Source of the DNA: a virus
Length of the DNA: 23,553 nucleotides
Reading direction: 5' to 3' (one strand)
Virus record (IMG/VR): IMGVR_UViG_3300028840_001667
Coordinates: 1-23,553 of that record
In this document: piece after piece, positions 6,365 to 22,681 of the stretch
How positions within the stretch are numbered: the first letter of the stretch is position 1
Layout of the letters: each line of letters opens with the position of its first letter
The notes under the pieces: model-generated
The model's database searches: none
The model's input: the letters and a program-made list of their open reading frames with translations, nothing else
Told to the model about the DNA's origin: nothing
Program-made: the position numbers and the translations under genes

Positions 6365-7071
6365 TATGCATCACCTTTCAGTCGCTTATTTGATTTACCG
6401 AATTCATGGGCTACAGCGGCCTGGATTAATGCTCCGGAAATCTCGTTCATCATGGATACCTTTTCTGGATCGTCACTCATCTGCTGTGCCACCGAGATGG
6501 CAGCGTTCAGTATAATTTCGTCAAGTGAGCCGTTGGTTTCCAGTGATGTAGTATTATTGGCGTCGTTTAACGTGTAACTGAGTGCCTTGGGCTGCCTGAT
6601 ATAGTGTACCCATGAACTGACTGGATAGGAACCCAACGAGACTTCGAGCATCAACAGATTCGACAGGATATAGAACACCGGTCTGCCATCGTTGCCTTTG
6701 AAGTGGAAATTTCCGGCGTATTGCAGATCATCCAGCTCACGTTCCACCGCAAATACACGAGCACCGTCTATTTCACACTCCACGTTTATAATGCCGGACG
6801 CTGCTACGTTGTAAGTAAAATTATCCAGCGAGAATCCAGATGCCAAGATAGACTGTGCTTCACGCTGTGACAATTCCCCGAGCAACTGATATGCGGATTT
6901 GCGAGCATTCGTATGACCAAGTACTGCGAGTACCATCTGGTTATACGCAGCATCCAGTGCAGCGAGTCTCTGGTTGGAAGTAAACCGTTCTCCATCTGTA
7001 GTCCCTGCCGATACTTCGTCTGCGAGCCTACGAGATAATTCTATTGATAAAGCCGCAACCGTAGTTGCCAT
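6364..7071 (-). CDS. Head-tail adaptor/connector-like protein (235 aa)
   Basis: Starts MATTVAALSIELSRRLADEV at 7071, sharing a base with the previous stop (TAATG). The pattern is a helical N-terminus with RLADE and NQRLAALDAAYNQMV, a beta-rich middle (VFAVERELDDLQY, FYILSNLLMLEVSLG), a VHYIRQPKALSYT strand and a C-terminal helix (LDEIILNAAISVAQQMSDD). The YxRxPxxL strand followed by an 'E.I...A' helix is a frequent feature of phage adaptor proteins that join portal to tail. Together with the next gene it probably forms the connector ring below the portal. No membrane segment or signal peptide. Function is inferred from architecture and position. Confidence 0.65.
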   Translation of the reverse strand: MATTVAALSIELSRRLADEVSAGTTDGERFTSNQRLAALDAAYNQMVLAVLGHTNARKSAYQLLGELSQREAQSILASGFSLDNFTYNVAASGIINVECEIDGARVFAVERELDDLQYAGNFHFKGNDGRPVFYILSNLLMLEVSLGSYPVSSWVHYIRQPKALSYTLNDANNTTSLETNGSLDEIILNAAISVAQQMSDDPEKVSMMNEISGALIQAAVAHEFGKSNKRLKGDA

Positions 7072-7889
7072 TATTCTTCACCGTTATCCTTCGTTACGGT
7101 TAAATCGTCATCAAATTTCATTGCGAATGTACTAGCATCCTGCTGGTATACCTGGACGCCGCGAACTTCGTGGCCGCATACGATACTGGTATTCACAAAT
7201 GTGTGAACGCCGATCTGTGAGCATTTACAACCAAATACCAAGTCCTCAGACCAGCGCATCGGTTTGCCGCCTGGCGTCATGGGTTTATACCAATACTGAA
7301 ACCATGGATACTCCAGTTCGGACGCCTTGTCGTCGAATAAAGACAGGTCAATCATCATGCAACCGGTTCCGGCGGCATCAGCTACATAGATAGAATCCAT
7401 TGCAAAGTCCGGATCTTTGGTGCCGTTGATGTCGTCAAATGCATCACCGGTCCAACGATACACAGCATTCACATAACCGGTACGTCTGATGTTATATACT
7501 CCGGCAGCTATATACACTTTCTCGTCGGCTTCCAACTCGAAGGTACTCAGGAGTCCGAGTGTGGTGTGAGGCGGGAAACTCATATCACTATCCACGAACA
7601 TCACATAATCAAACCCTCCGGCCAGTCCTTTCTCGATGGCATGGTTACGGAACATATCGACTGCACTGGTCTGTCCGGCGAACAACTCCACCTGGAACAC
7701 CATACCCGCACCGGCAGTGAGGTTGTGAAAGGTTTTGAAAAACAACGGCCTGATGTTGTCGTAGTATGACGTCGCTATAAGGACTTTAGGTAACGTGTCC
7801 AACTCAGGGCTGTCTTTGCCCAACTCTCTTCCGTCCGGCGCGACAATCCTTGACGACTCAGCCGGTCGTATAATTTTTGATTTCGACAT
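7071..7889 (-). CDS. GT-A glycosyltransferase, paralogue of the gene at 8829-9521 (272 aa)
   Basis: ATG at 7889 with AAGGA about 10 nt upstream, inside the 3' end of the preceding glycosyltransferase: the two frames overlap by 115 bases. Sugar-transfer fold features are PKVLIATSYYDN (about 34-45), the metal-binding FVDSDMSF with DSD at 100-102, AGTGCMMI (about 173-180), SEDLVFG (about 214-220) and CGHE (238-241), whose His commonly binds the metal. Motif order and spacing match the other GT-A protein here (DSD, then GTG, SED and GH), so they are paralogues. Acceptor and sugar cannot be told from sequence. The N-terminal 30 residues precede the domain. A shorter TTG start at residue 30 is less supported. 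Confidence 0.85.
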   Translation of the reverse strand: MSKSKIIRPAESSRIVAPDGRELGKDSPELDTLPKVLIATSYYDNIRPLFFKTFHNLTAGAGMVFQVELFAGQTSAVDMFRNHAIEKGLAGGFDYVMFVDSDMSFPPHTTLGLLSTFELEADEKVYIAAGVYNIRRTGYVNAVYRWTGDAFDDINGTKDPDFAMDSIYVADAAGTGCMMIDLSLFDDKASELEYPWFQYWYKPMTPGGKPMRWSEDLVFGCKCSQIGVHTFVNTSIVCGHEVRGVQVYQQDASTFAMKFDDDLTVTKDNGEE

Positions 7890-8839
7890 AGATCAAGTGT
7901 CCTTGTTACAAAGTGCTCATTGTAGGCATCAGTTCCAGGTTCCTCCTGGATACAAATGCCCTCTGATCCTACGGTTTCCGGCAGTCCGGCGCGGTGTGAC
8001 GTGATGACTGGAGTACCGGCGCATATAGATTGCTGCGCTACACCGCAGGAGGATTCGACAAAGTTAGAGTTCGGATACAGCAGGAGTTTAGCAGAAGCCA
8101 GTTCTGAAAGGAGGCGCTCCTGCTGTACCGGTTCATGTATATTAATTCCATCCAATTTCTCAAGTGCATCGAATATCGGTTTTGCTTGAATGTCGGATGG
8201 ATTATTATCAAGGTATAGAGATGTTTTGGCATACACGTCCAAGTACGCATCCGGCAACTCCGCTTTAATGCGAGGCCAGATTTTGATCATATTTTCAAGG
8301 CCACGATACCACGTACTGGCCCAGATAAATTTATTCTCGTCCTTCTCTACATCATCAGGAAACAATGATGGATCAACGCCGTTCTTGATCACTGTAGTTT
8401 TACCTTGCAAACCTGGATACATCTCATTCAGGGTGTCCCGTTGCCACTTGGACTTGACGACGAATCCATCGAGATGTTCACAAATCCACTTATCCCAAAA
8501 GATGTGATTATTAGGTTGGTCAAAGGCGTCGCCGCTCCAGTTCAGGAGGATACGGGGCCGTTCTCGGAACCATGCACGGATGCGTGTGTTGAGTATTTCG
8601 TGAGCGCGGACAACAATTAACGTGTCCAACTCGTCATCACGAATTGCAGTATAGGATTTCACCATCAATCCGTCAATCGGAGAATACTGTTTATCTGTGT
8701 TGCAATGGATTGTAATAGGCCATCCAGTTTGTACCAATGCCTGTGCAAGCTGCACTGCGCTCACCTCTGCGCCTCCCATCGGGCGATCAAGCCCGTTGCT
8801 CAGGTCCACCGGCGTTGTTAACCAAAAACTAATATCCAT
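7775..8839 (-). CDS. GT-B (GT4-like) glycosyltransferase (354 aa)
   Basis: ATG at 8839 with GAGGA 8 nt upstream, overlapping the upstream gene by 11 bases. GT4-type features are PMGGAEVSAVQLAQAL (about 20-35), VIKNGVDPSLFP (150-161), which is the linker between the two Rossmann domains, and VESSCGVAQQSICAGTPVI (about 261-279), the donor-sugar loop. In most GT4 enzymes this loop has Glu-x7-Glu; here the first is Glu262 and the eighth position is Gln270, so the second acid is absent, which may alter donor binding. No signal peptide or membrane helix, so it is cytoplasmic. It sits between the two GT-A paralogues and probably extends the same glycan. Confidence 0.88.
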   Translation of the reverse strand: MDISFWLTTPVDLSNGLDRPMGGAEVSAVQLAQALVQTGWPITIHCNTDKQYSPIDGLMVKSYTAIRDDELDTLIVVRAHEILNTRIRAWFRERPRILLNWSGDAFDQPNNHIFWDKWICEHLDGFVVKSKWQRDTLNEMYPGLQGKTTVIKNGVDPSLFPDDVEKDENKFIWASTWYRGLENMIKIWPRIKAELPDAYLDVYAKTSLYLDNNPSDIQAKPIFDALEKLDGINIHEPVQQERLLSELASAKLLLYPNSNFVESSCGVAQQSICAGTPVITSHRAGLPETVGSEGICIQEEPGTDAYNEHFVTRTLDLCRNQKLYDRLSRQGLSRRTEESWAKTALSWTRYLKSL

Positions 8840-9521
8840 AAATCAAGTCCTCATTGTTTTGCGGCTCGCACGGCTCAATCTTGGCGTATCCAGTTCCATC
8901 ACCACTACGTCTCTGCGGCCATACTACATACGGTCCGACATGTCCGGCTATCAAGGAACCGTCGATATGTATCTTATATCCAGCATCCTTGGCATTTTCA
9001 CAGAATACGTAATCCTCGGATACTTGTTCAATCTTGTTTTCATTAAAATGTTCTGTTGGTTTGTAATAAAACCACGGAGGTTCCAGTTTCTCGAACACCT
9101 CACGTTTGATAAGTATCCCGCCTGTGCCTATTGCATCAACCTCCTCAAGTCTCGGCATGGGCCACACGCTACACGGCAACCCTTCATCATTCAACCTTGC
9201 TGCACACGGCAAAATACCACGTACTTTGCGCAGATAAAATAGTCCAACAATATCCACGTCATGACTCAGTAATCTCCCAAGCGTCCCAGGTTTAAATATC
9301 ATATCCGAATCCAGCATGAGTATATGCGTCCAATCACCTTGGAGCATCTTATGCACCAGTAAATTCCTCGCCTGATTCGTCACCCTGTACGGCTGTATAT
9401 GAGGCGCAGAGGCGATGCCCTCAGACCCATCAGGATCAAGGGCAATCGCTGCCTGCATGGATTCTACGAATCCTACCTCAAAGTTATCATCTACAGGGAG
9501 TCCTATGAATACTTTATTCAT
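8829..9521 (-). CDS. GT-A glycosyltransferase (230 aa)
   Basis: ATG at 9521 with GGAG close upstream. It starts at the fold itself (MNKVFIGLPVDDN), so it is shorter than its paralogue. Key features are ARNLLVHKML (51-60), LMLDSDMIF with DSD at 71-73, GTGGILIKREVF (about 132-143), PPWFYYKP (148-155), SEDYVFC (168-174) and AGHVG (192-196). DSD coordinates the nucleotide-sugar metal; Glu-Asp of SED and His of AGH are likely acid/metal ligands. This compact type is frequent in phages. It follows the capsid genes directly and begins a three-gene sugar-transfer cluster. Its acceptor is unknown. The C-terminus is polar (CEPQNNEDLIYGY) and probably not part of the fold. Confidence 0.87.
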   Translation of the reverse strand: MNKVFIGLPVDDNFEVGFVESMQAAIALDPDGSEGIASAPHIQPYRVTNQARNLLVHKMLQGDWTHILMLDSDMIFKPGTLGRLLSHDVDIVGLFYLRKVRGILPCAARLNDEGLPCSVWPMPRLEEVDAIGTGGILIKREVFEKLEPPWFYYKPTEHFNENKIEQVSEDYVFCENAKDAGYKIHIDGSLIAGHVGPYVVWPQRRSGDGTGYAKIEPCEPQNNEDLIYGY

Positions 9522-9533
9522 GGAATCTCCAGT

Positions 9534-9881
9534 TTAATCGGTTGCGAAATGGCGACCGATAACAATACGATGAACGCTGAATGTCTTGCGGTGACTGTTC
9601 GTGTCCTCCGTAACATCCGGAGCGACGAACAGTTGATAAGCCAATTCATCGACATCGGTTGCGGGAGAATAGCTGTCAAAGACAGCAGCAAATCCGGCAA
9701 CGATTTGATTTAATTGTGTCGGAACAGCTACGTCAGTAGCATCTGTTGCAGCTCCCGACGCGGCAAAACTGCTATTGCCGACTTCGATGATCAAATCACC
9801 ATAACGCATACCACCAAGATCCATAGCTCTGACCAGCTTAAAAAGCGCATCAGTCTGGATATAATCTTTTCCTGTTGCCAT
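9534..9881 (-). CDS. Probable head decoration or minor head protein (115 aa)
   Basis: Lies 14 bases after the capsid gene with the strongest Shine-Dalgarno in the window (separate entry), so it is probably abundant. The sequence is Ala/Asp/Val-rich: KLVRAMDLGGMRYGDLIIEVG, then a small-residue stretch (SSFAASGAATDATDVAVP) and a hydrophobic part (QIVAGFAAVFDSY), ending KTFSVHRIVIGRHFATD. This size and position match head-decorating or stabilising proteins of other phages. I see no specific family motif, so a minor capsid or head-completion role stays possible. Confidence 0.6.
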   Translation of the reverse strand: MATGKDYIQTDALFKLVRAMDLGGMRYGDLIIEVGNSSFAASGAATDATDVAVPTQLNQIVAGFAAVFDSYSPATDVDELAYQLFVAPDVTEDTNSHRKTFSVHRIVIGRHFATD

Positions 9882-9887
9882 AACTAG

Positions 9888-9897
9888 TCACCTCCTT
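9888..9897 (-). promoter_or_regulatory. Very strong ribosome-binding site for the 115-aa head gene
   Basis: AAGGAGGTGA, ten bases matching the 16S anti-Shine-Dalgarno, 6 nt before the ATG at 9881. It overlaps the capsid stop codon (TAA at 9896-9898), so termination and initiation are adjacent. It predicts a high expression level for a structural protein. Confidence 0.8.
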
Positions 9898-11227
9898 ATA
9901 CAGACTCAGTGATACCGTAGAACACGCCGTGCGCAGTCGCATGATTGCGCCACAAACCTGTCATGGTGAACAATTCCGATTCGCGTGTATGCGACCGGCC
10001 TGGATTAATTTCACGTACCTGCACATCATGATTCCGCATGACCATGATATTCACGAAACTCGGATCAACGGCAATGCCGTCAACAGCGTATTCCATCGCT
10101 GACGTAGAAGCCTCAGTCAGCATCGGGTGACGCATAAGTTCCAGAATACCATGACCAGTGTCAATCTCTGTGACTTTAATACCAACAGCCTTCGAGATCG
10201 TGTCATTGAAAATCAGTGTTTTCTCCAAGTAGTTGTGCAGCTCAGTGTAAAACTTGCCGCCGACAAACAACCATTTACGTGCCGAAGCGTTACCGTAACG
10301 GAACAGAATCTCCGTATACTTACGCCACAGCGCCATGTCGAACGTAGACGCAAAGTTGAAGAATCGTGATTCTCCATCAAGCGCATCGGATGCACCAGGT
10401 ATAAACTCTACCAGACCGCCCGTTCTACGACGTGGTTTACCGCCTACGTAATCCTTGGCCTTACGACCGAAGAAATAGGCGTGTTCAATTTGACGGTTAA
10501 AAGTTTTACGCTTTCGCATCATGCGTTGCTCGAACGTTTCCTTGGCATACAAATCAGTAGCCGCGTACACGGAATCCTCACCGACTGTTTTGGTGAAGAA
10601 TTCCAGGTAATTCTGTACTGACTTCGGCTCATGATCTTTCGGAGACGGAGCAAGACCGCCATCAGCGATGTGATTGTTAGCCCAGAGTAGAGTATACTCC
10701 GACGTGATCGTGGACACTGTACCGGCAGCCGCAGCAGCCTGAGAGTATCCGTTTCCGCGAGCTACGAGAATCTTCGCATAACCGGCTGCCTTACCTGACA
10801 ATGTAACCGATCTCACGACGATATTCTCTTGCGTGTAGCCGCTATCGTACTTTGTTGTTGAATAATTTGCACCATCTGAGTCACAGAAAAGCTGAGGTAC
10901 AACCAGTACGTCACCTTCCTGGAGCCATTTGGCTTGGGCGTCCGTCATATATACAGTGTCGCCTTCATAATCTGTATCGGCACCATCAGTCGAGATCGTG
11001 AATTTTGCTGGAACTTCTTCACGTTCAAAACCTTTAGGCTCCGGATCAGTGACAACACTTTTCTTACCCATTTGACGGAATCGCCAATCGAGAGGAGCGT
11101 ATACACGGTCCAACATAACAACCTTGTCACCAATGTCAAATTTGCGTCGAATCGAGTACGTATCCTCAAGATTAAAATAATCGCTTACTACGTATCCCGC
11201 AGCAGCTCTTACAGCACTTCCTGCCAT
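9896..11227 (-). CDS. Major capsid protein (443 aa)
   Basis: ATG at 11227 with AAGGAGTGATG upstream. Length, position after scaffold and features fit an HK97-fold major capsid protein of the SU10/N4-like kind. It has a central helix with ETFEQRMMRKRKTFNRQIEH, then AYFFGRK, and a GGKPRRRTGGLVEFI stretch (about 262-277). This 'RK.KTFNR.IE.A.FFG' plus RRRTGGL arrangement is typical of this capsid group. The C-terminal half carries WRKYTEILFRYG, WLFVGGKFYTELHNY, and NPGRSHTRESELFTMTGL near the end. No protease or cleaved delta domain is evident at the N-terminus. It is one of the safest assignments here after terminase. Confidence 0.85.
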   Translation of the reverse strand: MAGSAVRAAAGYVVSDYFNLEDTYSIRRKFDIGDKVVMLDRVYAPLDWRFRQMGKKSVVTDPEPKGFEREEVPAKFTISTDGADTDYEGDTVYMTDAQAKWLQEGDVLVVPQLFCDSDGANYSTTKYDSGYTQENIVVRSVTLSGKAAGYAKILVARGNGYSQAAAAAGTVSTITSEYTLLWANNHIADGGLAPSPKDHEPKSVQNYLEFFTKTVGEDSVYAATDLYAKETFEQRMMRKRKTFNRQIEHAYFFGRKAKDYVGGKPRRRTGGLVEFIPGASDALDGESRFFNFASTFDMALWRKYTEILFRYGNASARKWLFVGGKFYTELHNYLEKTLIFNDTISKAVGIKVTEIDTGHGILELMRHPMLTEASTSAMEYAVDGIAVDPSFVNIMVMRNHDVQVREINPGRSHTRESELFTMTGLWRNHATAHGVFYGITESV

Positions 11228-11240
11228 GATTCATCACTCC

Positions 11241-12410
11241 TTAGTGATTGCGGGCGTAGGAATCAGTTCCTACGTCTAGGAATCCCGCTTTCTTGAGAGT
11301 TTGGGTGTCAGAATCGTCCTGAGGTTTCCGTGGAGTCTCAGCCGGAGGTTTGGTTGCTATTGATTTCTTCGGAGCACCGTTCTTCGGAGCACGATGTGAT
11401 AATTGTTTGATTACCGAAGCCGGCAGTTTGAAGCCTTTGGTACTGATGTCACGAGCGATACTGAGCAGGTATAATCCCGACTCACCAACCGTCTGTGACC
11501 ACTGTACCAGATCTTGTACCTCGGTCTCCGTAGTGAAATCATTAGGACGCATTTTACGTAAATACGCAACAGATTTCAGGGCTGCGTCTTTTTGCTGCTC
11601 CTGTAACCTCTCGGCACGGAGTTCGGCTTTGACCGATTCCTTCATCTGTTCGGATTCGTGTTTACGGAATGCATTCGAAAACTTTATATATGCGCGACCA
11701 CTCGACGTTGAAGGATCGTACTGATCCTCGGATACGTACTCTTCACCGGATTCAATAAAATCACGCGGATGTTTATCAAATGGAGTAGTGGCTTGAGACT
11801 GTGCTTTGGATACCGCCAATTGATCCTGTAGACCTTTGACTGTATCGTTCAATTGCTCAATTTGAGTACGTAATTGTTCGGCTTCGTGTTTATACTTGTC
11901 AGCCGTAGACTGCCACATCGTGATGCGCTCTGTATCACTCAGATTAGATTTATCCGGCTCCGGAGCTGGTGTAGCTGGTTGTTTCTGTACTTTCAGTCCG
12001 AGTTGTCCGGCTTCATCCAAACTGATGAATATGTCTTCGAATTCCTCCTGAGGCTCCTCCTCAGTAGATTCTTCACCTTCCGATTTATCTGAGCTTTCCG
12101 TATCATCGGATGACGAATCATCCTCCGCATCTTCCTGCTCCTCAGAATCAACCGGTTCATCGTCGGATTCATCGGTAGGATCAGGATGGCGACGTGCATC
12201 TTCCACGTCCTCTGTATCCTGAGATTCCGGTGTATCCTGCGAGGACGAATCCTCGTCTGCGATGTCCAAATTGTTTCCGTCGCCCAAGGTTCCAAACAGA
12301 TTACCGAGATCATTTTCGGTGAGTAGTCTGGAGTCTTTGGCTCTTTCTTCTGCGGCCACTTGCTCTGCATCGGGCGAGTGGTCTACTTTGTCAACTTCGG
12401 GTTCAGGCAT
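11241..12410 (-). CDS. Scaffolding protein (389 aa)
   Basis: ATG at 12410 with GAGGAGGG upstream; 13 bases before the capsid gene. The first 150 residues are extremely acidic and Ser/Asp/Glu-rich (DADEDSSSQDTPESQDTED-like composition), as in scaffolds that line the inside of the procapsid. Residues about 165-205 form a coiled coil (EAEQLRTQIEQLNDTVKGLQDQL). The C-terminal end is Lys/Pro-rich and basic (KKSIATKPPAETPRKPQ), the usual capsid-binding part. No serine protease motif was seen, so a fused protease is unlikely. Position between portal and capsid is decisive. Confidence 0.8.
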   Translation of the reverse strand: MPEPEVDKVDHSPDAEQVAAEERAKDSRLLTENDLGNLFGTLGDGNNLDIADEDSSSQDTPESQDTEDVEDARRHPDPTDESDDEPVDSEEQEDAEDDSSSDDTESSDKSEGEESTEEEPQEEFEDIFISLDEAGQLGLKVQKQPATPAPEPDKSNLSDTERITMWQSTADKYKHEAEQLRTQIEQLNDTVKGLQDQLAVSKAQSQATTPFDKHPRDFIESGEEYVSEDQYDPSTSSGRAYIKFSNAFRKHESEQMKESVKAELRAERLQEQQKDAALKSVAYLRKMRPNDFTTETEVQDLVQWSQTVGESGLYLLSIARDISTKGFKLPASVIKQLSHRAPKNGAPKKSIATKPPAETPRKPQDDSDTQTLKKAGFLDVGTDSYARNH

Positions 12411-12444
12411 CGAAACGCCCTCCTCTAATTATATGTGTATTAAT

Positions 12445-12462
12445 GAGTGATCGAAATCACTC
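12445..12462 (-). other. Hairpin over the portal stop codon
   Basis: On the minus strand GAGTGAT, loop TTCG, ATCACTC: a perfect 7-bp stem with a four-base loop. It contains the portal stop TGA (12457-12459) and precedes the scaffold gene by 35 bases. There is no T-run after it, so it does not look like a normal terminator. It might slow ribosomes, protect or process the mRNA between portal and scaffold. Confidence 0.5.
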
Positions 12463-14508
12463 GGATTTATTCGTCTGCTTCGCCTCGGCAACATCCAAGT
12501 CGCGTTCAAAATCCTTGACTGCATTCTTGGCATCGCTAATCGCCGTTTGTGCAGCCATGTTATATTTCTCAGACGCTTTCTGGACGTTCACATTTTTACG
12601 CAACTCGACGTTCTGAGTGCGCTCGCGCTGAATCTCGCCATTCAACTGGTTATTCTGCTCCTGGAGCTGTTGTAGTTGCTGCTGTAGTTGTGGTATCAAA
12701 TCCAGCGCTTCCGAAAGTTCCTGTTTATTCTTGCTAAGTGGCAAGTGTTCCAACAATGGTTTCAGGAATGCCGGATTTTGTGTAACCTGTAGTAAGTCCT
12801 TGAATAGTTGTGCCTTCTCCACAGATCGGCTTGGTGCCATACTACCGGCATGTACTCGCCATCTTGCACGGAAGTTGCTCATGTTGGTGAGCATTACCAG
12901 TGGTTCGTCTTTGTATAGTTGCTCAATCGCGATTGACGGCTCACCAAGCGCATAAGTTTGCTCAGTGTCCGTATCGCTGTCATAGGTACTGAATACCTTG
13001 AAATCCGTATACACCTGCGGTGCCCACTGAAAATACAGGTCATATAGCCGCTGGATGCCGCGCTCGATTTCAACACGAGGCAGCACCAGTGCCTCGTCAG
13101 CCCACTCACCAATCTGCAACGTGGCACCCAGCGTGCGTGGAGCCTGCGACGAATCACCCATAGTCAAGCCATGTTGCTGTAGACCGTATTCCATGGTGAT
13201 CGCCATGTAGTTCATGAGATATACAAAGGTGTCATTTATAGGTTCTGGTTTGATGGTTTCTACAGGTGGTTTACCTGTGATTGGATCAAAGGGGAGGAAC
13301 AACATGCCGCCGTGAGTGGTTAATTTCTCAGTAATCTCCTCCTCCGTCATCTCGAATTTTACGTTGGAGTTTATGATGAAGCGGAGCAGTGATCCCATAG
13401 CGGCATTACTGATTACCAGGTTCAACGCCTTGGACATGAATACTTGATTCTCGGATAGGTAGTCCAACTCACCGCGCGGTTCGCCATTAAAGGTATCTTC
13501 CCCGCGCATCTCGATGATTGGTACGCTATCAAGCTCGATCCACTCAGGTTCGCCGAGCTTCACCATGTCGCCGGCAGTCTGCGTAACCTTAACCATCGGA
13601 ATTCTGGCTTCGTATACCAGCGCAGCACCGGCCTCATACATCGCTTGATCTTCCGGTTCCAATGATTCTACGAACGCTTCCTCAGTTGCAAAGTATCCGT
13701 CCTTCTTGCCCTTCATTGCCGTGAGTAACTTACCATTCGGCCCCAAGTCGCGGAATACGAAGCCATCCACCTTCTTCGGTTCGTATGTCTCCAACAGCAG
13801 TACGAATTCCTTTTCGCCGCCTTCGAACGTAGCCGGTAATTCGACATCCGTAATACTACGATCTGTGCCTTCCATACCATACCGCACCGTATCGTCAGGA
13901 TGCAGCATTTGTGGCCGATCCTCTTTATACTCCGGATAGTCTTCGAAAAATTGGTCAGCGTCCATCAGGCGTCGCACTATAACACGTGGCGCTTCTTCAA
14001 TCTTTCTGGCTTGTTTATCATAAAATACATCGCGGTAGGATAGGTACTTAAACTTGAGTTCTCCAAGTCCGTAGTCGGCGTCAGGATCATAATACAGCAG
14101 CAAGTATCCTGCACCAGTACGCTGCTGTGCTGCTACACAGTCCGATACTTCCTTGTGACCATCAGACTGATCCCAGAAAAAGTCAGCCATTGCAGAGAAG
14201 GTATCCACCATAGATTGATCTTCGTCAGATATACCGAATATCTTGCCGGTTGGTTTATTGGCGACCAGCTTGGATACGCGCTTCCGCACTAGTGGTCTGA
14301 GACGATTGTCTACAAGTGTAGTCTCGCGGTTGGATTGCGCATCTTGACCTTCCGAGGTCTCGAAGACCTTGCCGTGGTATATATTCTCTATACGGTCGCG
14401 CTCTTCACGCCATTCCTGTGTATTCTCTAGGTATCGTCGGTAGTATTGGTAATTCCGGTAGGCATCCGGATCTTTGTTTCCCTGAGTAGCGTCTAGTGGC
14501 TCTGACAT
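12457..14508 (-). CDS. Portal protein (683 aa)
   Basis: ATG at 14508; an AAGGA lies 10 nt upstream but inside a hairpin (separate entry). N-terminal region RNYQYYRRYLENTQEWREERDRIENIYHGK and KPTGKIFG, the middle strand-rich wing and stem, and the final 80 residues form a long Gln/Glu-rich coiled coil (IPQLQQQLQQLQEQNNQLNGE) and then AAQTAISDAKNAVKDFERD. Such a C-terminal helical barrel is typical for portals of podovirus-like phages with a crown. It forms the dodecameric ring at the capsid vertex, binds terminase and admits DNA. Gene order terminase-portal-scaffold-capsid supports it. Confidence 0.88.
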   Translation of the reverse strand: MSEPLDATQGNKDPDAYRNYQYYRRYLENTQEWREERDRIENIYHGKVFETSEGQDAQSNRETTLVDNRLRPLVRKRVSKLVANKPTGKIFGISDEDQSMVDTFSAMADFFWDQSDGHKEVSDCVAAQQRTGAGYLLLYYDPDADYGLGELKFKYLSYRDVFYDKQARKIEEAPRVIVRRLMDADQFFEDYPEYKEDRPQMLHPDDTVRYGMEGTDRSITDVELPATFEGGEKEFVLLLETYEPKKVDGFVFRDLGPNGKLLTAMKGKKDGYFATEEAFVESLEPEDQAMYEAGAALVYEARIPMVKVTQTAGDMVKLGEPEWIELDSVPIIEMRGEDTFNGEPRGELDYLSENQVFMSKALNLVISNAAMGSLLRFIINSNVKFEMTEEEITEKLTTHGGMLFLPFDPITGKPPVETIKPEPINDTFVYLMNYMAITMEYGLQQHGLTMGDSSQAPRTLGATLQIGEWADEALVLPRVEIERGIQRLYDLYFQWAPQVYTDFKVFSTYDSDTDTEQTYALGEPSIAIEQLYKDEPLVMLTNMSNFRARWRVHAGSMAPSRSVEKAQLFKDLLQVTQNPAFLKPLLEHLPLSKNKQELSEALDLIPQLQQQLQQLQEQNNQLNGEIQRERTQNVELRKNVNVQKASEKYNMAAQTAISDAKNAVKDFERDLDVAEAKQTNKSE

Positions 14509-14516
14509 TATTCACC

Positions 14517-14550: not shown

Positions 14551-14595
14551 TTAATGTCTACACATGAAGAAGGCAAGGAATTATTTTGTCTACAC
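14544..14595. repeat. Imperfect direct repeat between terminase and portal
   Basis: A 20-base unit AAGGAATTTAATGTCTACAC at 14544-14563 recurs as a 21-base form AAGGAATTATTTTGTCTACA(C) at 14575-14595, 31 bases apart. The second copy overlaps the terminase stop. On the minus strand each copy offers an ATTCCTT that can pair to the portal AAGGAAT. They form the only noncoding stretch between terminase and portal (81 bases), so they may be regulatory rather than random. Confidence 0.55.
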
Positions 14596-16305
14596 TTGCT
14601 TAAATTGGATGGACTTCCAGTGATCCACAGCATCAAATCTCTGCTGCGGCGTCTGCTTCTTTATCATATCTTTCCACGGCGTATGCAGTCGCATGTTTAC
14701 ATGTACATCTTCGTTCGGGAATGCCCTGATCCGCTCGGCTGGCGGTTCAGCGTACCTGTCTCCCATTTCGAAGGCATCCGCGAGATGAAGGCCGGAGTGT
14801 ATCATGGCTCCGAGGTTATCAAAGTCGTCCATAAGGGCACGTAGATCAGCATTAATGAACAACATTCCACGCTTGCCCATATTCTGGAACCTCAGAATAC
14901 GTTGAATCTTGGATTTCCGTGTAGACACAGGCACCGGTATGAACTGGAATGGATGGTCACGGTAGAATTCATTCGTAGCCATGTAGAAGTTAAAGTCTTT
15001 ATGGAATACACGTTGCCAGGTATTACTCTCGATGGCAACTTTGGAATAGTAATACTTCTCATGCAACTCCTCCACGGCATCAATGATGTCCGATGGATCC
15101 AGTGGTCGGAACAGATAATTAAGAGCAAACGTACACGGCATCAATACATCACGATTCTCGCCTGTCGGAAAGTATCCCTTACATGACGTAATCACGGCAC
15201 GTGGTCCCCAATCCTCCGCGTCGATCTCAGGGTCGATGCCGAGGAATGTATTTACTACAATAGGTTCCATATCATTGATGTATAGCAAATTCTGGTCATT
15301 CTTACGAGCGAAGTTCAACTCTACGGACTTGTACGGAATCCTCCGGCTCAGTTGCATCACTGGCCGGTTCATGCGCTCGTACATCCACTCTTCGTAACGA
15401 CCGGAATCAATGGCAGTCTGACGCTCTTTCAGCAGGAAGGCAGTCGGCCATTTATCCTCCCATATGGATCGGTCATTATCGTCGAGTGCAGAGTAGTCCA
15501 CGCCCTTCCACGCACGGTCACGCTTTACCGTGGCGAGTAGACATGTATCCGACAGCATGTTCCCGATGAGGCGTATTTTGCCGACCTCACCGTCGATACG
15601 GTACATTACATTTCGAAACAACCACTTGCGATGCCGCGAGAGCAGTGCTTCGGAATCCACATCCTCTGCTTCCTCCGGATCGTCGATGATAACGAGCGTT
15701 GGTCGTATTGCGCCCGTCTTGCGGCCACGTATTTTTCCCATACAACCGAGTGCTCTGATAACCACTCCTGTAGGGAGTTCGATTTCCGAGGCACTCCAAG
15801 GTCTATTCCTGGTAAGTCTAGTAATAGACTTCGGCTTAAAGTCGCCAAAGATTTCGAGCAGCTTCTCGTTCTCTTCGAGTTCGCGTTTGAGGTTATCAAA
15901 GTGTTCCTCCTCGGATAATTGCTGTGTGGAACCGCCTACAGTGATATAGGCGTCCAACTTATACATGGCACGATAGATCGGATATACCAGGGTGGCGATG
16001 GATGTCTTGCCAAATTCAGAGGGACACGTAATATAGTAATACCGTAACTCTTGTGCCAAGTCACGGTATATCTTCTTGTGGAATTCAGGTACGTCAGTGC
16101 GAATGTGCCAGTGCGCCTCTTGGCCCTGATCACCGAAGAAGAATTTGGAGAACTCGGCGATCACATTCGCCATGACTTGTGGTGGGTATACCTTGCCGGT
16201 TTCGGGATCAAACGGGGAGAAATAGTTCCGAACGAATGTGCGGTCTCGGTCTGTGATCAGGTGTATGCGCTTCCAGTCCCATGTAAAGTGCTGGTCGAGG
16301 TTCAT
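14590..16305 (-). CDS. terL: Terminase large subunit (571 aa)
   Basis: Starts MNLDQHFTWDW at 16305 with GGGTGA upstream, three bases after the preceding stop. ATPase part: YYITCPSEFGKTS (about 90-102) is the Walker A-like loop, with a PSEFGKTS form instead of canonical GxxGKT; TLVIIDDPEE (203-212) is Walker B; GCMGKIRGRKTG (187-198) follows the coupling region. Nuclease part: FLGIDPEIDAED (355-366) provides the first Asp, AIESNTW (424-430) the Glu and GLHLADAFEM (505-514) the late Asp. Together with the portal it packages DNA into the capsid. The gene upstream is not a recognisable small subunit. Length matches typical TerL of 480-600 residues. Confidence 0.92.
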   Translation of the reverse strand: MNLDQHFTWDWKRIHLITDRDRTFVRNYFSPFDPETGKVYPPQVMANVIAEFSKFFFGDQGQEAHWHIRTDVPEFHKKIYRDLAQELRYYYITCPSEFGKTSIATLVYPIYRAMYKLDAYITVGGSTQQLSEEEHFDNLKRELEENEKLLEIFGDFKPKSITRLTRNRPWSASEIELPTGVVIRALGCMGKIRGRKTGAIRPTLVIIDDPEEAEDVDSEALLSRHRKWLFRNVMYRIDGEVGKIRLIGNMLSDTCLLATVKRDRAWKGVDYSALDDNDRSIWEDKWPTAFLLKERQTAIDSGRYEEWMYERMNRPVMQLSRRIPYKSVELNFARKNDQNLLYINDMEPIVVNTFLGIDPEIDAEDWGPRAVITSCKGYFPTGENRDVLMPCTFALNYLFRPLDPSDIIDAVEELHEKYYYSKVAIESNTWQRVFHKDFNFYMATNEFYRDHPFQFIPVPVSTRKSKIQRILRFQNMGKRGMLFINADLRALMDDFDNLGAMIHSGLHLADAFEMGDRYAEPPAERIRAFPNEDVHVNMRLHTPWKDMIKKQTPQQRFDAVDHWKSIQFKQV

Positions 16306-16308
16306 ATA

Positions 16309-16569: not shown

Positions 16570-16589
16570 GTCTCCACCTTTCTCTACAT

Positions 16590-17553: not shown

Positions 17554-17554
17554 G

Positions 17555-18954: not shown

Positions 18955-19336
18955 CGTTACCCTCCGCAACTCGTAATGATTTGATCGCACCGGCCAGACA
19001 CTTCATCACGGCATCAAACTGCGTGTGCGTCAGCTTGAAAAATCCTTCATCATCATAATTCGTGAATTTCAGTCCCATATCGTACAACAGATACTCAGTG
19101 ACCTCATGTACAAAATAATGCAGGAAATCCACATCCGGCGCAATCGTTATAATAAGTTTCTCTGCGTCGTAATTCGCTGCATGTGCATCATCCTGGGGAG
19201 AGCGGATGACAACGGTCCACTCGTCCCCAAGGATGTGCGTTTTGAGGACCGCACCATGAGCAATGTTACCTGCATCAATAGGGAACAGAACGGAGGTCGG
19301 ACCAGAAGGCCCTGATTTTGTGGAAAGTGTACCCAT
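18938..19336 (-). CDS. HExxE metal-binding-like protein (132 aa)
   Basis: ATG at 19336 with GAGGAA about 8 nt upstream. Core: LIITIAPDVDFLHYFVHEVTEYLL, with His77-Glu78-x2-Glu81, and a later His104 (LTHTQFDAV) then CLAGAIKSLRV. The His-Glu-x-x-[Glu/His] helix followed by a His in an 'H..F....L' helix resembles a group of small phage proteins related to minimal metallopeptidases. With Glu where the second His usually is, catalysis is uncertain. It is the first gene after the terminator-like stem. The N-terminal 30 residues are Gly/Ser/Pro-rich. Confidence 0.65.
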   Translation of the reverse strand: MGTLSTKSGPSGPTSVLFPIDAGNIAHGAVLKTHILGDEWTVVIRSPQDDAHAANYDAEKLIITIAPDVDFLHYFVHEVTEYLLYDMGLKFTNYDDEGFFKLTHTQFDAVMKCLAGAIKSLRVAEGNDADAM

Positions 19337-19361
19337 GCTGCGATTTCCTCAAATTCGTATT

Positions 19362-19429
19362 AAAACGCGGCGGCGTGATTAACAGGGTCAGAATTTGCTG
19401 GTTCTGGGAGGAGTTAGATACGCCGCCAC
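19362..19429 (-). terminator. Terminator-like GC stem with T-run
   Basis: On the minus strand GTGGCGGCGT pairs with ACGCCGCCGC (ten positions, one G-T wobble), separated by 43 bases that hold a small inner hairpin (CAGAA/TTCTG). The 3' arm is followed by G and TTTT (19362-19365). It lies in the 99-base gap after the signal-peptide gene. The long loop makes it weaker than a classic intrinsic terminator. It may attenuate transcription between the promoter at 20259-20287 and the next operon. Confidence 0.5.
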
Positions 19430-19435
19430 GGGGAG

Positions 19436-19927
19436 TTACGGTTCAGAAATACCCATGTGGTATATTACCCAGAAATAGGTCTTACCGGCACCACGATAAT
19501 TCGAGTTATCTGTAATCCTGTAATATCCCATAACTGGAGTATATGCGGTTGCTCCATCTGTCGAGTTGTTTATAATCGACGCAGCAATCAGAGTATTGTC
19601 AAGTCCGGCAGCAGCACACGATGCTTCATCGAGGATACAGTCCAAGTCACCAGTGTATCCAATACAAATCGAGTCAGCAGGGCCGCCGTATCCAGCAGTG
19701 TTCCATCCGTCAAGAGTGTATGCGCCACATGAAGTAATAACGGCGTTAGTCGGCAATGCTCCGAGATTAACACGTAATACGGAGTCAACTGTGGCATCGT
19801 AATACACCTCTGACGTAGCCGCATTCAACCAACCATCCAGTACCTCTACCTTGTCTTTCCAGAATTGGGCGTTAACCGCAGTCGTCAGGAGTACCGACAA
19901 CAGCAGAAATGTGAGAAGTTTCTTCAT
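19436..19927 (-). CDS. Secreted protein with Sec signal peptide (163 aa)
   Basis: ATG at 19927 with AAGGA upstream, partly within a palindrome. Residues 1-20 (MKKLLTFLLLSVLLTTAVNA) are a textbook Sec signal peptide, cleaved after VNA. The mature part has four to five Cys (SCGAY, DSICIGYTG, DCILDEASCAAAG) that could form disulfides in the periplasm, and a sugar- or ligand-binding-like beta character (AYTPVMGYYRITDNSNYRG, TYFWVIYHMG). I know no family. Phage proteins that are exported may alter receptors or block superinfection; here this is only a possibility. It sits between a promoter-led small gene and a terminator-like stem. Confidence 0.72.
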   Translation of the reverse strand: MKKLLTFLLLSVLLTTAVNAQFWKDKVEVLDGWLNAATSEVYYDATVDSVLRVNLGALPTNAVITSCGAYTLDGWNTAGYGGPADSICIGYTGDLDCILDEASCAAAGLDNTLIAASIINNSTDGATAYTPVMGYYRITDNSNYRGAGKTYFWVIYHMGISEP

Positions 19928-19936
19928 GATTTATCA

Positions 19937-19950
19937 TCCTTTCGAAAGGA
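19937..19950. promoter_or_regulatory. Perfect 14-bp palindrome over the Shine-Dalgarno of the secreted protein
   Basis: TCCTTTCGAAAGGA is a perfect palindrome 10 bases before the ATG at 19927. The second half supplies AAGGA. In mRNA it could form a short hairpin that hides the ribosome-binding site, or as DNA a dimeric protein site. Confidence 0.45.
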
Positions 19951-19979
19951 GACGACGTAGGTGTAACTTATAGGTATTG

Positions 19980-20141
19980 CTACACCCACGCGCCATAATC
20001 AGTACGTTTCGAGTAGAGTGGACCACAACCGTTTCGATCCGGTGGAATGAAGTAAGGCATACCTGTGCCATCGTCCGCAGCAGCATCATCTTCATACAGC
20101 TTGATGCCGCTCCGCAGCCACGCGATGCGTAGCTTCCAGAT
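19980..20141 (-). other. Open frame after the small zinc-finger gene, possible second half by +1 shift
   Basis: Open frame bounded by an upstream in-frame TGA and ending TAG at 19980. Its clear part reads IKLYEDDAAADDGTGMPYF, then IPPDRNGCGPLYSKRTDYGAWV: varied, coding-like composition in a frame +1 to the preceding gene. There is only an internal ATG at 20060 (26 codons) with a poor ribosome-binding site; a CTG at 20099 has GGAG ten bases before. It may be a separate tiny gene or the C-terminal part of the zinc-finger gene at 20092-20232, lost by a sequence error or reached by frameshifting. Confidence 0.4.
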
Positions 20142-20232
20142 TCAATCCCTTCACCTCATTGCCGCATATGTTGCAATGTGCCCACCCATTGTCTTTAATT
20201 TCGTATGGAGCTTCCACCGTTTCAGTATTCAT
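20092..20232 (-). CDS. Tiny zinc-finger-like protein (46 aa)
   Basis: Reads MNTETVEAPYEIKDNGWAHC, then NICGNEVKGLNLEATHRVAA and ERHQAV. GAGGAG lies three to four bases before the ATG, and a good promoter 27 bases further up. Cys20-x2-Cys23 with His36 and His43 makes a C2H2-type site in a beta-beta-alpha order. Probably a small DNA- or protein-binding regulator. It is the first gene after the promoter and may be truncated by a frameshift, because the +1 frame stays coding-like for another 38 codons beyond the stop. Confidence 0.7.
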   Translation of the reverse strand: MNTETVEAPYEIKDNGWAHCNICGNEVKGLNLEATHRVAAERHQAV

Positions 20233-20258
20233 GATCTCCTCGTAGCGATAACTTTTAG

Positions 20259-20287
20259 AATGTAAACAATGTATACGGACTTGTCAA
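20259..20287 (-). promoter_or_regulatory. Sigma-70-type promoter
   Basis: On the minus strand -35 TTGACA (20282-20287, 6/6) and -10 TACATT (20259-20264, 4/6) are separated by 17 bases (20265-20281). Predicted start near 20252, 20 bases before the ATG of the zinc-finger gene, whose Shine-Dalgarno is GAGGAG. It begins three bases after the carbamoyltransferase stop, in one of the few spaces in the window. Confidence 0.72.
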
Positions 20288-20290
20288 GGG

Positions 20291-21850
20291 TTATTTCACC
20301 AGTACACCGTCTACCATAGCGACGCATTCCACCTCGGCACGGTTTAGCGTCCACAAGGTATCCTGTGCCGTTTCGTTGATCGCAGTGCCCAGAATATTCA
20401 AGCTGGTATTGATGAGCACCGGATAGCCGGTCGCCTCGCCTACCTGTTTCAGCAGCTTGTACACCTCCGGATTGAATTCCTCCGTGATAGTCTGGACTCT
20501 TGCGGTTCCGTCGTGATGTGTCACCTCGGTAAGCGATTCATCCTTCACCTGGGCATTCACCAGCATCAATTCCGACATACGAGATGGCTCGATGTCAAAG
20601 TACTTCGATGCATCATCAGCCGGTACGATGGGCGCGAGTGGACGATACCATTCCCTGCCCTTGAGTTGCTGACTGACACGTTTCCTATTATCATGTATGT
20701 GTGGTAGTGCGAATATACTCCGATGCGACAAAGCGCGTGGGCCTGCCTCGGAGCGGCCCTGATGCCACAACACAACTTTGTTCTGCGCCAATAATTCCGC
20801 AGTCTCCGAAATCACGTCGTCCGATATACTGCCGTTTGGTGGAGGAACCATTCCAAGGAACGTAATGTCCTGTGTTGTATACTCCTCCAAGCCCTCACCG
20901 TAAATATGGTGCAGTACGTACAACGCCGCACCTGCCGACAGTCCGGAGTCCTTGCAGAACGGAGCGCAGAATACATCCCAATCCTGCATGAAGTGTGAAT
21001 TGCCGTAGATGTTTAGTGCGCCGCCACCGGACAGGCAGAGGTTTTGGACGTTGAAGGATTCCTTTAACTTATCATTCATCAAGGATACTTCCCGCATCAG
21101 CAGGTGCTGCATCGTAGCAGCAACTTCCTGCTTGTGGTTGTCGCCACGTCTCGGAACCATAACCTCAAATTCCTTCCAGCCCGTATCTTCCATCAATTCT
21201 ACCAGTGGATCAATTTTGTACTCCATAGCATTCCCGTACGCCGCCAGCCCCATCAATTTACCGGAATCCCGCCAGTTCCCAAGCACACGATGCGCTGCCT
21301 GACCAAAGTATAGCGCCGAATTCAGGTTTGGGCATTCGATGTATTGTAACTCGGTGCCGACGCCGTGCATCACCGCGCTATTCTGATTATCAGGTGCTCC
21401 AGAGCCGTCATAACTCAGGCACACCGCATCATTCCAGTTACTTAAGTAGTATGACGACGCACAGTGCGCTATATGGTGCTGCACCTGCGCTGCCGGAAGT
21501 GTGTAATCCAGCAACGTAACTTGCAGTCCATCCTCATAGTCCCACGGCGTCATCTGGCGCGGACCTTTACGGTACAATGACGCTCCCTTGGTAATATGTA
21601 TCCCCCAGAGATCCTGCTCCCTCACAGCCGCCTCCGACCTGTTGCCGGATGGGATGCTCAGGGCTACGAAGTCGATGTCACGCATAGTAAGTCCGGCAGT
21701 TATGAGCGCCGTAGCGACCATGGTGTCATTGTAGCCGCGGTCATACTTTATGCGCGTAAGACGTTCCTTCTCGATAAGTGCTACCAGTCTGTTGTCCTCA
21801 ATTACGGCGCATGACGCGTCGTGTCCAAGATGTAGTCCTAAAATGTTCAT
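20291..21850 (-). CDS. NodU/CmcH-type carbamoyltransferase (519 aa)
   Basis: ATG at 21850, overlapping the previous stop (ATGA). N-terminal Kae1/TobZ-like part: MNILGLHLGHDASCAVIEDN, EKERLTRIKYD, metal-binding His125/126 and His129 (VQHHIAHCASS), SYDGSGAPDN (146-155), and CLSGGGALN (272-280). C-terminal part has WHQGRSEAGPRALSHRSI (362-379) and QLKGREWYRPLAPIVP (395-410), the carbamoyltransferase C-terminal signature. The family moves a carbamoyl group from carbamoyl phosphate, through carbamoyl-AMP, to a hydroxyl on a sugar, antibiotic, Nod factor or modified base. Full length (519) is close to the usual 500-600, so it is probably active. Substrate is unknown. It is co-encoded with a sulfotransferase. 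Confidence 0.93.
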   Translation of the reverse strand: MNILGLHLGHDASCAVIEDNRLVALIEKERLTRIKYDRGYNDTMVATALITAGLTMRDIDFVALSIPSGNRSEAAVREQDLWGIHITKGASLYRKGPRQMTPWDYEDGLQVTLLDYTLPAAQVQHHIAHCASSYYLSNWNDAVCLSYDGSGAPDNQNSAVMHGVGTELQYIECPNLNSALYFGQAAHRVLGNWRDSGKLMGLAAYGNAMEYKIDPLVELMEDTGWKEFEVMVPRRGDNHKQEVAATMQHLLMREVSLMNDKLKESFNVQNLCLSGGGALNIYGNSHFMQDWDVFCAPFCKDSGLSAGAALYVLHHIYGEGLEEYTTQDITFLGMVPPPNGSISDDVISETAELLAQNKVVLWHQGRSEAGPRALSHRSIFALPHIHDNRKRVSQQLKGREWYRPLAPIVPADDASKYFDIEPSRMSELMLVNAQVKDESLTEVTHHDGTARVQTITEEFNPEVYKLLKQVGEATGYPVLINTSLNILGTAINETAQDTLWTLNRAEVECVAMVDGVLVK

Positions 21851-22071
21851 GTATCCTCTCCGATTTTATATGTAGGTTCCACTTCCTGCGGCACCGTAAA
21901 TGTCGCATACCCCAAGTATATCCCGATACCAATTAAGAATCCAGCCGCCACTTTACCGGCGTCACTTATCCCTGAGCCGAAGGAGCCGTCAGATGCCATG
22001 AAGTTCAGGAATGTGACCAGTGTGTATTCAGTGCAAAGTGTAGCGATGAGTAATGCTGTATAACGTATCAT
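21847..22071 (-). CDS. Small two-helix membrane protein, holin-like (74 aa)
   Basis: ATG at 22071 overlapping the previous stop (ATGA), GAGGAGA upstream. Two hydrophobic segments: about 4-24 (YTALLIATLCTEYTLVTFLNF) and 38-58 (AGKVAAGFLIGIGIYLGYATF), with a short Gly/Ser loop between and an acidic C-terminus (EVEPTYKIGEDT). Size and topology fit a class II holin, and the gene next door is another short membrane protein. No endolysin is in the window, so this assignment rests on topology alone. It could also be a regulator of the envelope. Confidence 0.65.
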   Translation of the reverse strand: MIRYTALLIATLCTEYTLVTFLNFMASDGSFGSGISDAGKVAAGFLIGIGIYLGYATFTVPQEVEPTYKIGEDT

Positions 22072-22190
22072 TTCTCCTCGTCTCCATTATCTCGGAATAT
22101 GATCCACAGGATTCCAATGTATGCAAATCGTGACGCTGCAATCAACAACAGTACGCCTATCACTTTGCCTATCATTTCCAACTCAGCCAT
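22068..22190 (-). CDS. Small membrane protein (40 aa)
   Basis: Reads MAELEMIGKVIGVLLLIAAS, then RFAYIGILWIIFRDNGDEEK. ATG at 22190 with AAGGTG six bases upstream; it overlaps the sulfotransferase end by 19 bases and its stop overlaps the next start (ATGA). Residues 6-32 are hydrophobic, broken by Arg21, giving one or two short membrane helices. It may pair with the adjacent 74-residue membrane protein, e.g. as holin and antiholin; this is a guess. Confidence 0.65.
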   Translation of the reverse strand: MAELEMIGKVIGVLLLIAASRFAYIGILWIIFRDNGDEEK

Positions 22191-22681
22191 TGCCACACCT
22201 TGAGTACCTTCCGTGAGATCGACCAATTATGTTTACGTATCCTCCGTCTGTGTCGCGGCAGGTAATTCTCGCCGAATACAACCTCCGTGTCTATTGCCTT
22301 GCTATACCGCGCCACAGCTTCGTAGATATGCGCCATCCGGAGCAAATGATAATTCGGCGTACCGCCCTGTTTCTCCATGTTCGACGATATGATGTCCAGA
22401 GGGTTTCGTAACACATACACAACCTGGATCGGCACTGTGATACGCGGTATCAGTTCATCGAAATGCAGCGGTAGCCACGGCAATTTGTAGACACAACGGT
22501 CGTTCGTGTTGATTTCCTCTGCCAGCCGCTTCACGTCCAGGTCGTTCATATAATCCGGTTCCCAATTTTCGTAGTCTGCCGTGGATTCCTTCTTGCTACT
22601 GAGAGAGTATCCGTGATCCAGATACCACTTAGCTACGAGCGATGTGTAGCTGCGGGGCATTCCTACTATTATGATGTTCAT
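22172..22681 (-). CDS. Short sulfotransferase-like protein (169 aa)
   Basis: ATG at 22681 (MNIIIVGMPRSYTSLVAKWY), overlapping the previous stop as ATGA, GGGAG five bases upstream; an ATG four codons earlier covers that site. GMPRSYTSL (7-15) is the PAPS 5'-phosphosulfate loop, and VVYVLRNPLDIISSN (87-101), with Arg92 and Ser99, is the 3'-phosphate loop of sulfotransferases. At 169 residues it is shorter than most (250-300), which suggests a minimal core with a shortened C-terminus (the end is basic: RHRRRIRKHNW). It would transfer sulfate from PAPS to a hydroxyl, likely on sugar. Alternative: a related P-loop kinase. Confidence 0.82.
   Translation of the reverse strand: MNIIIVGMPRSYTSLVAKWYLDHGYSLSSKKESTADYENWEPDYMNDLDVKRLAEEINTNDRCVYKLPWLPLHFDELIPRITVPIQVVYVLRNPLDIISSNMEKQGGTPNYHLLRMAHIYEAVARYSKAIDTEVVFGENYLPRHRRRIRKHNWSISRKVLKVWQWLSWK

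Follow-up and report, generated by a model that had tools for sequence, protein, structure and literature searches.

To our knowledge, few phages have been shown to glycosylate their virions. It is reported for mycobacteriophages (Che8, Rita and others), with the capsid protein named as the acceptor in the available summary of that work (Freeman et al. 2023, via PMC11256854). The locus described here, which lies in a stretch of viral DNA of 23,553 nucleotides analysed as a whole (the window), is similar to the system so summarized in that the glycosyltransferases (GTs) are phage-encoded. In Maravista, the mycobacteriophage GT genes are located close to the genome's 3' end, in comparison to the head block in the window, and neither a sulfotransferase nor a carbamoyltransferase is described in that summary. 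Another virus-encoded enzyme, A197 of STIV, is an essential GT with the capsid protein as its supposed glycosylation target, its donor and acceptor being unproven (PMC10551542). The GT-A enzymes of the window share the GT-A fold with A197, by profile (E 3.4e-6) and, for GT-A2, by structure; STIV, however, is an archaeal virus of another lineage and has a single GT in comparison to three in the window.

NovN and TobZ, antibiotic O-carbamoyltransferases whose substrates are sugar hydroxyls, are the closest solved relatives of the window carbamoyltransferase (E 2.4e-50 and 5.7e-48, respectively) and both domains of these enzymes are present in it, while their sequences, like that of NodU, are distant. 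A phage 5hmC carbamoyltransferase has also been proven (MetaGPA, PMC8670742); it belongs to the same superfamily and keeps the same conserved His/Asp residues, but all three of its specificity residues differ from those of the window enzyme, and no thymidylate synthase neighbour of the kind expected for the 5hmC type was recognised in the window, which is a genome fragment. In a cassette of marine T4-like phages (L040, L063, L075 and MH319754), a sulfotransferase and a carbamoyltransferase lie close together on one strand as they do in the window, but that sulfotransferase is of another subfamily (PF13469, ~300 aa), and the cassette is found beside tail fibres and usually without the GT-A of PHROG 1574. 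A literature search of limited coverage, in which absence is weak evidence, returned no paper joining a phage sulfotransferase and carbamoyltransferase as a glycan system.

Gene content of the window

The genes on which the comparison is based are as follows.

3664..6093, - strand: right-handed beta-helix protein with a signal-like N-terminus (PF13229, E 2.3e-8)
6364..7071, - strand: putative head-tail adaptor, by position (synteny) only
7071..7889, - strand: GT-A2 glycosyltransferase, DSD motif (PHROG 1574, E 6e-13; AF2, Foldseek)
7775..8839, - strand: GT-B (GT4-type) glycosyltransferase (PF13439, PF00534, PHROG 2170)
8829..9521, - strand: GT-A1 glycosyltransferase, DSD motif (PHROG 1574, E 1.2e-24)
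9534..9881, - strand: 115-aa protein, between the capsid gene and GT-A1 (ORF list, synteny)
9896..11227, - strand: major capsid protein, SU10 family (PF17236, E 3.4e-19)
11241..12410, - strand: probable scaffold protein, acidic (position between portal and capsid genes; synteny)
12457..14508, - strand: P22-like portal protein (PF16510, E 1.7e-25)
14590..16305, - strand: terminase large subunit (PHROG 38, E 3.2e-37)
20291..21850, - strand: O-carbamoyltransferase of the NodU/TobZ/NovN superfamily, 519 aa (Pfam, PHROG, PDB relatives, residue check)
21847..22071, - strand: hydrophobic 74-aa protein, between the sulfotransferase and carbamoyltransferase genes (ORF list)
22172..22693, - strand: sulfotransferase-like protein, 173 aa (PF13469 and PF00685 below cut-off; PAPS motifs)

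All five reported transferase genes were present in the ORF list of the 23.5-kb window, all on the - strand. The sulfotransferase and carbamoyltransferase genes precede the terminase gene by 4-6 kb, and ~ten small genes intervene; the sulfotransferase-like ORF has 16 bases in common with the ORF before it, and the 74-aa ORF shares 4 bases with the carbamoyltransferase start. Family searches gave no match for the 74-aa and 115-aa proteins, and a domain search with the scaffold candidate gave nothing over cut-off, its assignment being based on the portal-scaffold-capsid order in loci L100-L179. The beta-helix protein is a possible tail spike or adhesin. Single-sequence searches of viral and genome contigs with the major capsid protein, terminase, sulfotransferase and carbamoyltransferase found no close relatives of the window, and its head/tail genes had no pairwise match in the relative loci compared.

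Glycosyltransferases behind the capsid gene

The original prediction placed GT-A, GT-B and GT-A genes inside the head/tail block; they lie in the head block, and their identities were borne out by Pfam, PHROG, the DSD motif and, for GT-A2, structure prediction. The three GT genes are located one small gene after the SU10-type major capsid gene. The GT-B protein matched PF13439 (E 4.3e-9) and PF00534 (3.5e-7), both above cut-off, as well as PHROG 2170 'glycosyltransferase' (E 2.1e-20), and its gene overlaps that of GT-A1 by 11 bases. Homology between GT-A1 and GT-A2 was evident (E 1e-12, 28% identity), and the D-x-D motif (DSD) forms invariant alignment columns in both, with D71 and D73 invariant in GT-A1. 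The AF2 model of GT-A2 (pTM 0.74) matched GT-A proteins in the PDB by Foldseek, including COLGALT1 (E 3e-9) and STIV A197 (7e-8), and its top structural matches are protein-modifying GTs together with A197. The true start of GT-A2 is probably further in, because the listed one overlaps GT-B by 115 bases.

To see the arrangement in relatives, we used loci collected with a profile of a five-sequence alignment. The PHROG 1574 GT-A was just downstream of the capsid gene in 76/95 loci, a count which does not represent 76 independent events because one SU10-type lineage, favoured by this profile, dominates L100-L179. Even so, the capsid genes ahead of the GT-A belong to three types unrelated to one another (SU10, P22 and Mu gpT), and the capsid-then-GT-A order is repeated in annotated circular genomes. 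The usual gap between the two genes is 339-363 bases (~0.35 kb) in relatives in comparison to 374 bases in the window, and the slot taken by the 115-aa protein is that of a ~100-aa gene in the relatives. The window thus shows both marks of PHROG 1574, namely the GT-A fold with DxD and the place right after the major capsid gene. Further sugar-related genes were found in single loci, with extra GTs, methyltransferases and a UDP-GlcNAc 2-epimerase after the head genes in L111 and annotated sugar-transfer genes (n=3) in L012. These results support the link between GT and head genes as a conserved arrangement rather than an accident of the window contig, and the earlier view that GT placement favours modification of the virion is compatible with this arrangement. 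That view had also set the GTs between the head protein and a connector; the capsid side stands, while the connector side is by synteny, as the SU10 adaptor (PF24175, E 2.7e-40) is the gene after GT-A in relatives and the window protein in that place has no detected direct homology to the adaptor family.

Carbamoyltransferase and sulfotransferase-like protein

The carbamoyltransferase proved to be full-length and in the orientation of the GTs, as had been claimed. It matched PHROG 1601 over residues 1-514 of 519 (E 2.7e-102) and both Pfam halves above cut-off (PF02543, 4.6e-49, and PF16861, 6.3e-31), with the Kae1-like N-terminal and YrdC-like C-terminal domains both present at full length. 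The five catalytic and metal-binding active-site residues checked (H10, H125, H129, D148 and D301) are all kept, without any substitution in NovN, the 5hmC enzyme or 91 relatives. Its closest phage relatives share 31-35% identity, and its placement in a tree with long branches is unreliable, so that our conclusions rest on other data. Against the NodU NCBIfam model it scored 167 in comparison to a cut-off of 1000 bits, indicating that it is not a NodU equivalog and that the Nod-factor analogy fails as a statement of family membership. A Nod-factor-like signal molecule was considered and rejected, as the NodU cut-off was missed and no genes of acyl-transfer or chitin-synthase type were recognised.

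The sulfotransferase claim was upheld in part, with both PAPS motifs and the expected strand on one side, and a length of 173 aa and scores below the curated Pfam cut-offs on the other (PF13469, E 1.4e-4, 22.7 vs 27 bits; PF00685, E 3.5e-3, 17.2 vs 22 bits). The 5'-binding loop GMPRSYTS is followed 84 residues later by the 3'-binding motif LRNPLDIISS, and when 3892 ORFs with a minimum length of 100 aa were scanned with a two-motif pattern, defined after sight of this protein, no other carried both. That it is some other P-loop-type or a decayed protein, leaving only the GTs and the carbamoyltransferase to matter, seems rather unlikely to us. The failure at both Pfam cut-offs, the short length in comparison to ~270-310 aa for other phage sulfotransferases, the lack of any relative by tblastn and the lack of a significant hhalign alignment to the sulfotransferases that phages carry in the recurrent pair described below all fit such a protein, but the Walker A lysine is missing, the PRS-x-TS loop and R-N-P-x-D-x-x-x-S motif are of sulfotransferase type and suitably spaced, and the gene lies two genes before the carbamoyltransferase, mirroring that pair. 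The structure search proposed originally was informative for GT-A2 as given above, while the AF2 model of the 173-aa protein was of low confidence (pLDDT 38). The identity of this protein concerns one part, and either answer is compatible with any reading of the whole set.

A sulfotransferase was present in 22/46 carbamoyltransferase records, and all 21 of those mapped were within 2 kb of the carbamoyltransferase and shared its strand, the gene order taking four or more forms. Several of these pairs adjoin tail-fibre genes, which they closely follow in L040 and L063. The neighbourhood comparison thus confirmed co-occurrence for this pair but not for the GT-A module, which is mostly apart from it: the carbamoyltransferase was found in 0/63 and the sulfotransferase in 3/48 GT-A records, and a GT-A in only 2/80 carbamoyltransferase loci. 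L075 and L076 unite GT-A, a GT-B-type GT, sulfotransferase and carbamoyltransferase, with two GT-As, GT-B-type GTs and the pair all within 10 kb in L075. The relatives show two separate modules, a capsid-linked GT-A and a sulfotransferase-carbamoyltransferase pair, usually inherited apart. Relatives mostly carry them independently, which does not support the five genes as one inherited set, and the original interpretation is partly supported overall.

Possible functions of the two modules

With three GTs behind the capsid gene and enzymes of sulfate and carbamoyl type in the same window, the phage may coat its particle with a decorated glycan. GT-A1, made with the capsid genes, would probably use a nucleotide sugar of the host to start a glycan on a protein of the head or of another part of the virion, and GT-B and GT-A2 might extend it. 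The carbamoyltransferase, given its family and conserved active site, would cap a sugar hydroxyl with carbamoyl phosphate and ATP, and sulfate from PAPS would probably be added by the small sulfotransferase, as its motifs suggest. The two modules may act jointly on one candidate virion acceptor. Glycosylation of the virion by the phage itself, the glycan being capped with carbamoyl and probably also with sulfate, we regard as plausible, if somewhat short of probable. A more specific form, in which a short glycan on the capsid or an adjacent head/tail protein is finished with both groups into a charged host-mimicking or shielding coat, and the marine tail-fibre-linked pair serves a like strategy that arose separately, is speculative and on the unlikely side.

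The genes could also be two unrelated modules in one genome, the GTs acting on the virion and the other two enzymes on some small molecule or on a glycan of the host envelope or tail fibre, which we hold to be a real possibility, albeit a doubtful one. This would agree with the rare co-occurrence in relatives, with the ~11 kb of head genes and ~ten small genes between the modules in the window, with the third-position GC of the upstream pair (0.61, above that of the head genes), and with HTVC008M, where the carbamoyltransferase lies among methyltransferase, NadE-like and UDP-glucose/GDP-mannose dehydrogenase genes; L075 and L076, however, combine the enzymes, and in S-SSM4 the carbamoyltransferase gene is within the head block, where it directly follows that of the major capsid protein. 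It is well known that phages encode GTs and acyl transferases acting on host glycans, and remodelling of the host O-antigen or capsule by the whole set, for superinfection block or receptor change, would fit the nucleotide-sugar enzymes in some relatives, but it appears improbable with no typical flippase or membrane-anchored GT gene recognised in the 23.5 kb, and with GTs embedded in late head genes at a position kept across three head types.

Much the least probable is DNA hypermodification, in which the carbamoyltransferase would act on 5-hydroxymethyl bases and the GTs would glycosylate them. T4 is the classical case of DNA glucosylation, and we know of no DNA GT in the capsid-linked GT-A family. 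The existence of a phage 5hmC carbamoyltransferase (PMC8670742) speaks for this explanation, and base-modifying genes could be missing because the window is a genome fragment. Against it, the thymidylate synthase/dCMP hydroxymethylase family occurred in 1/46 carbamoyltransferase records and was not recognised in the window fragment, and at the positions of TobZ W408, G421 and R423 the window enzyme has W, S and R in comparison to I, C and T in the 5hmC enzyme (0/3 match). In addition, the carbamoyltransferases of contigs without modified cytosine adjoin group 1 GTs (PMC8670742). On these comparisons the DNA-modification reading of the window carbamoyltransferase appears disfavoured, including the link to modified bases raised in the original prediction.

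If glycosylation of the virion with sulfate-carbamoyl finishing is real, the literature searched holds no phage with such a surface chemistry. The proposal is testable now, as S-SSM4, S-SRM01 (a sulfotransferase together with a GT) and HTVC008M are cultured phages with parts of the modules, and the presence of one GT family behind the capsid gene in three unrelated head types provides a large set of candidate phages with glycosylated virions.

Gene order and enzyme families in the window

The window is the complete IMG/VR record, a linear fragment of 23,553 bases, and all genes of interest were located on the - strand, listed here in transcription order:

-, small genes, first in order, ahead of the sulfotransferase-like gene
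22693-22172, -, sulfotransferase-like protein
22071-21847, -, 74-aa hydrophobic protein, between the sulfotransferase-like and carbamoyltransferase genes
21850-20291, -, carbamoyltransferase
-, about ten small genes, from the carbamoyltransferase to the terminase
-, late block: terminase, P22-like portal, probable scaffold, SU10-type capsid protein, 115-aa protein
8829-9521, -, glycosyltransferase (GT) GT-A1
7775-8839, -, GT-B
7071-7889, -, GT-A2
-, probable adaptor, then beta-helix and other tail-region genes

Adjacent genes overlap by a few bases (8829-8839, 21847-21850, 22678-22693 and at 7071), which suggests co-translation of these neighbours. The products of 19436-19927 and 3664-6093 (the latter the beta-helix protein) carry, by eye, hydrophobic secretion-signal-like N-termini, unusual beside phage structural genes.

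All five enzyme genes of the original prediction were confirmed, with the sulfotransferase as the weak member. GT-B and the carbamoyltransferase passed curated cut-offs, and the His/Asp residues of the latter are retained, being invariant across 91 relatives, NovN and a proven 5-hydroxymethylcytosine (5hmC) enzyme. GT-A1 and GT-A2 gave no Pfam match over cut-off; they are mutually homologous members of PHROG 1574 that retain the DxD motif and further invariant columns, and the predicted model of GT-A2 matched GT-A fold structures. The sulfotransferase-like protein is short and its family scores were below cut-offs, but it carries both PAPS motifs at suitable spacing; a search for its relatives found none, and no usable structure model was obtained. 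Third-position GC was 0.61 in the carbamoyltransferase and sulfotransferase genes (20291-22693) versus 0.44 to 0.58 in head genes, and the two were possibly acquired together.

Glycosyltransferases beside capsid genes

Among 95 GT-A loci (80 IMG/VR loci fetched with the GT-A alignment and 15 others), the GT-A started 0.34 to 0.85 kb past a same-strand capsid gene in 76, the distance in the window being 374 bases, which strengthened the proposed link between GTs and the virion. Seven of the remaining 19 run into the end of their contig within roughly 0.5 kb, while two others (L100 and L111) have an upstream capsid gene of the Mu gpT type, which was absent from the capsid queries used. The link is not universal, as in about ten loci the GT-A lies elsewhere or could not be judged. 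The preceding capsid was of SU10 type in the majority, including the window, P22 coat in L006 and L014, and Mu gpT in L100 and L111. L011, L013 and L015 are annotated circular genomes that share the order scaffold, capsid, small gene, GT and next structural gene, the last being the SU10 adaptor where tested. The block can grow, as L012 and L111 hold added GTs and methyltransferases, and the window is an expanded case of it. In L111 the GTs, methyltransferases and a UDP-GlcNAc 2-epimerase form a run of about 10 kb (9995-20555) after the capsid gene.

The sulfotransferase-carbamoyltransferase pair

A PF13469 sulfotransferase over cut-off was found in 22 of 46 carbamoyltransferase records, in comparison to 3 of 48 GT-A records, and in all 21 mapped cases (contigs of 13 to 125 kb) it lay on the same strand within 2 kb of the carbamoyltransferase. 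At least four arrangements were observed: the sulfotransferase lay upstream, either adjacent or separated by one or two genes, or downstream, either adjacent or separated by one gene. The pair therefore represents more than a single inherited layout, although a large share of the contigs are near-copies. The window shows the same pairing, separated by one small gene, but its sulfotransferase belongs to a different subfamily.

In L040 and L063 the pair shortly follows tail-fibre genes, and 2OG-Fe(II) oxygenase-like genes accompany it in L063, L038 (by eye) and L076. The marine T4-like phage examples of the cassette (L040:5368-11593, L063:865-11713, L075:1858-11590, L076:305-11593, L020:881-6903, L038:108-5920) frequently include a PHROG 8954 protein (GT-B-like by eye) together with 2OG-Fe(II) oxygenases, and may represent a hydroxylation and glycan pathway for tail fibres. 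Two SU10-type phage contigs (L118:7519-8780, L134:5918-7524) carry, in their late region, a sulfotransferase gene directly followed by one whose product matches APS kinase (E 2.9e-13 and 2e-9) and may supply PAPS. In cyanophage S-SSM4 (L019:4546-7542) the carbamoyltransferase gene immediately follows the major capsid gene, and in the cultured Synechococcus phage S-SRM01 (L181:8998-13382) a sulfotransferase, a glycosyltransferase and a nucleotide-sugar epimerase lie downstream of a tail fibre gene.

Co-occurrence of all five genes was not the rule across relatives: the carbamoyltransferase was present in 0 of 63 GT-A records, and PHROG 1574 GT-As in only 2 of 80 carbamoyltransferase loci (L075 and L076), although absence from these records is not proof of absence because most are fragments. 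L075 stands out, since a single run of 10 kb holds two GT-As together with GT-B-type GTs, a methyltransferase and both a sulfotransferase and a carbamoyltransferase. In the records compared, the capsid-linked GTs and the pair meet rarely, and the five genes are not one inherited set. The joint virion-glycan interpretation found partial support, in the strengthened virion link of the GTs and in the sulfate-carbamoyl pairing seen outside the window.

Virion glycan or modified DNA

Carbamoylation of 5hmC by a phage carbamoyltransferase is established (PMC8670742), and the window enzyme could likewise act on DNA bases. This reading is disfavoured: the established enzyme has a thymidylate-synthase-type neighbour (PMC8670742), a family present in just 1 of 46 carbamoyltransferase records, and the window protein differs at the three residues singled out in PMC8670742, located through a TobZ alignment with an inferred six-residue offset. 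The same study states that carbamoyltransferases outside modified contigs adjoin group 1 GTs.

Gene position and enzyme family are established by the analysis; under the favoured glycan reading, we infer that the enzymes would act jointly, GT-A1 working with head proteins as the putative acceptor, GT-B and GT-A2 extending the glycan from putative donor sugars, and carbamoyl, possibly also sulfate, serving as caps. Both the GT-A profile and the GT-A2 model matched STIV A197, an essential GT of an archaeal virus suspected to glycosylate the STIV capsid protein (PMC10551542), and mycobacteriophage capsids are reported to be glycosylated (PMC11256854); virion glycosylation is therefore already known. 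The novelty, if the reading is true, would be the carbamoyl or sulfate caps, not virion glycosylation itself.
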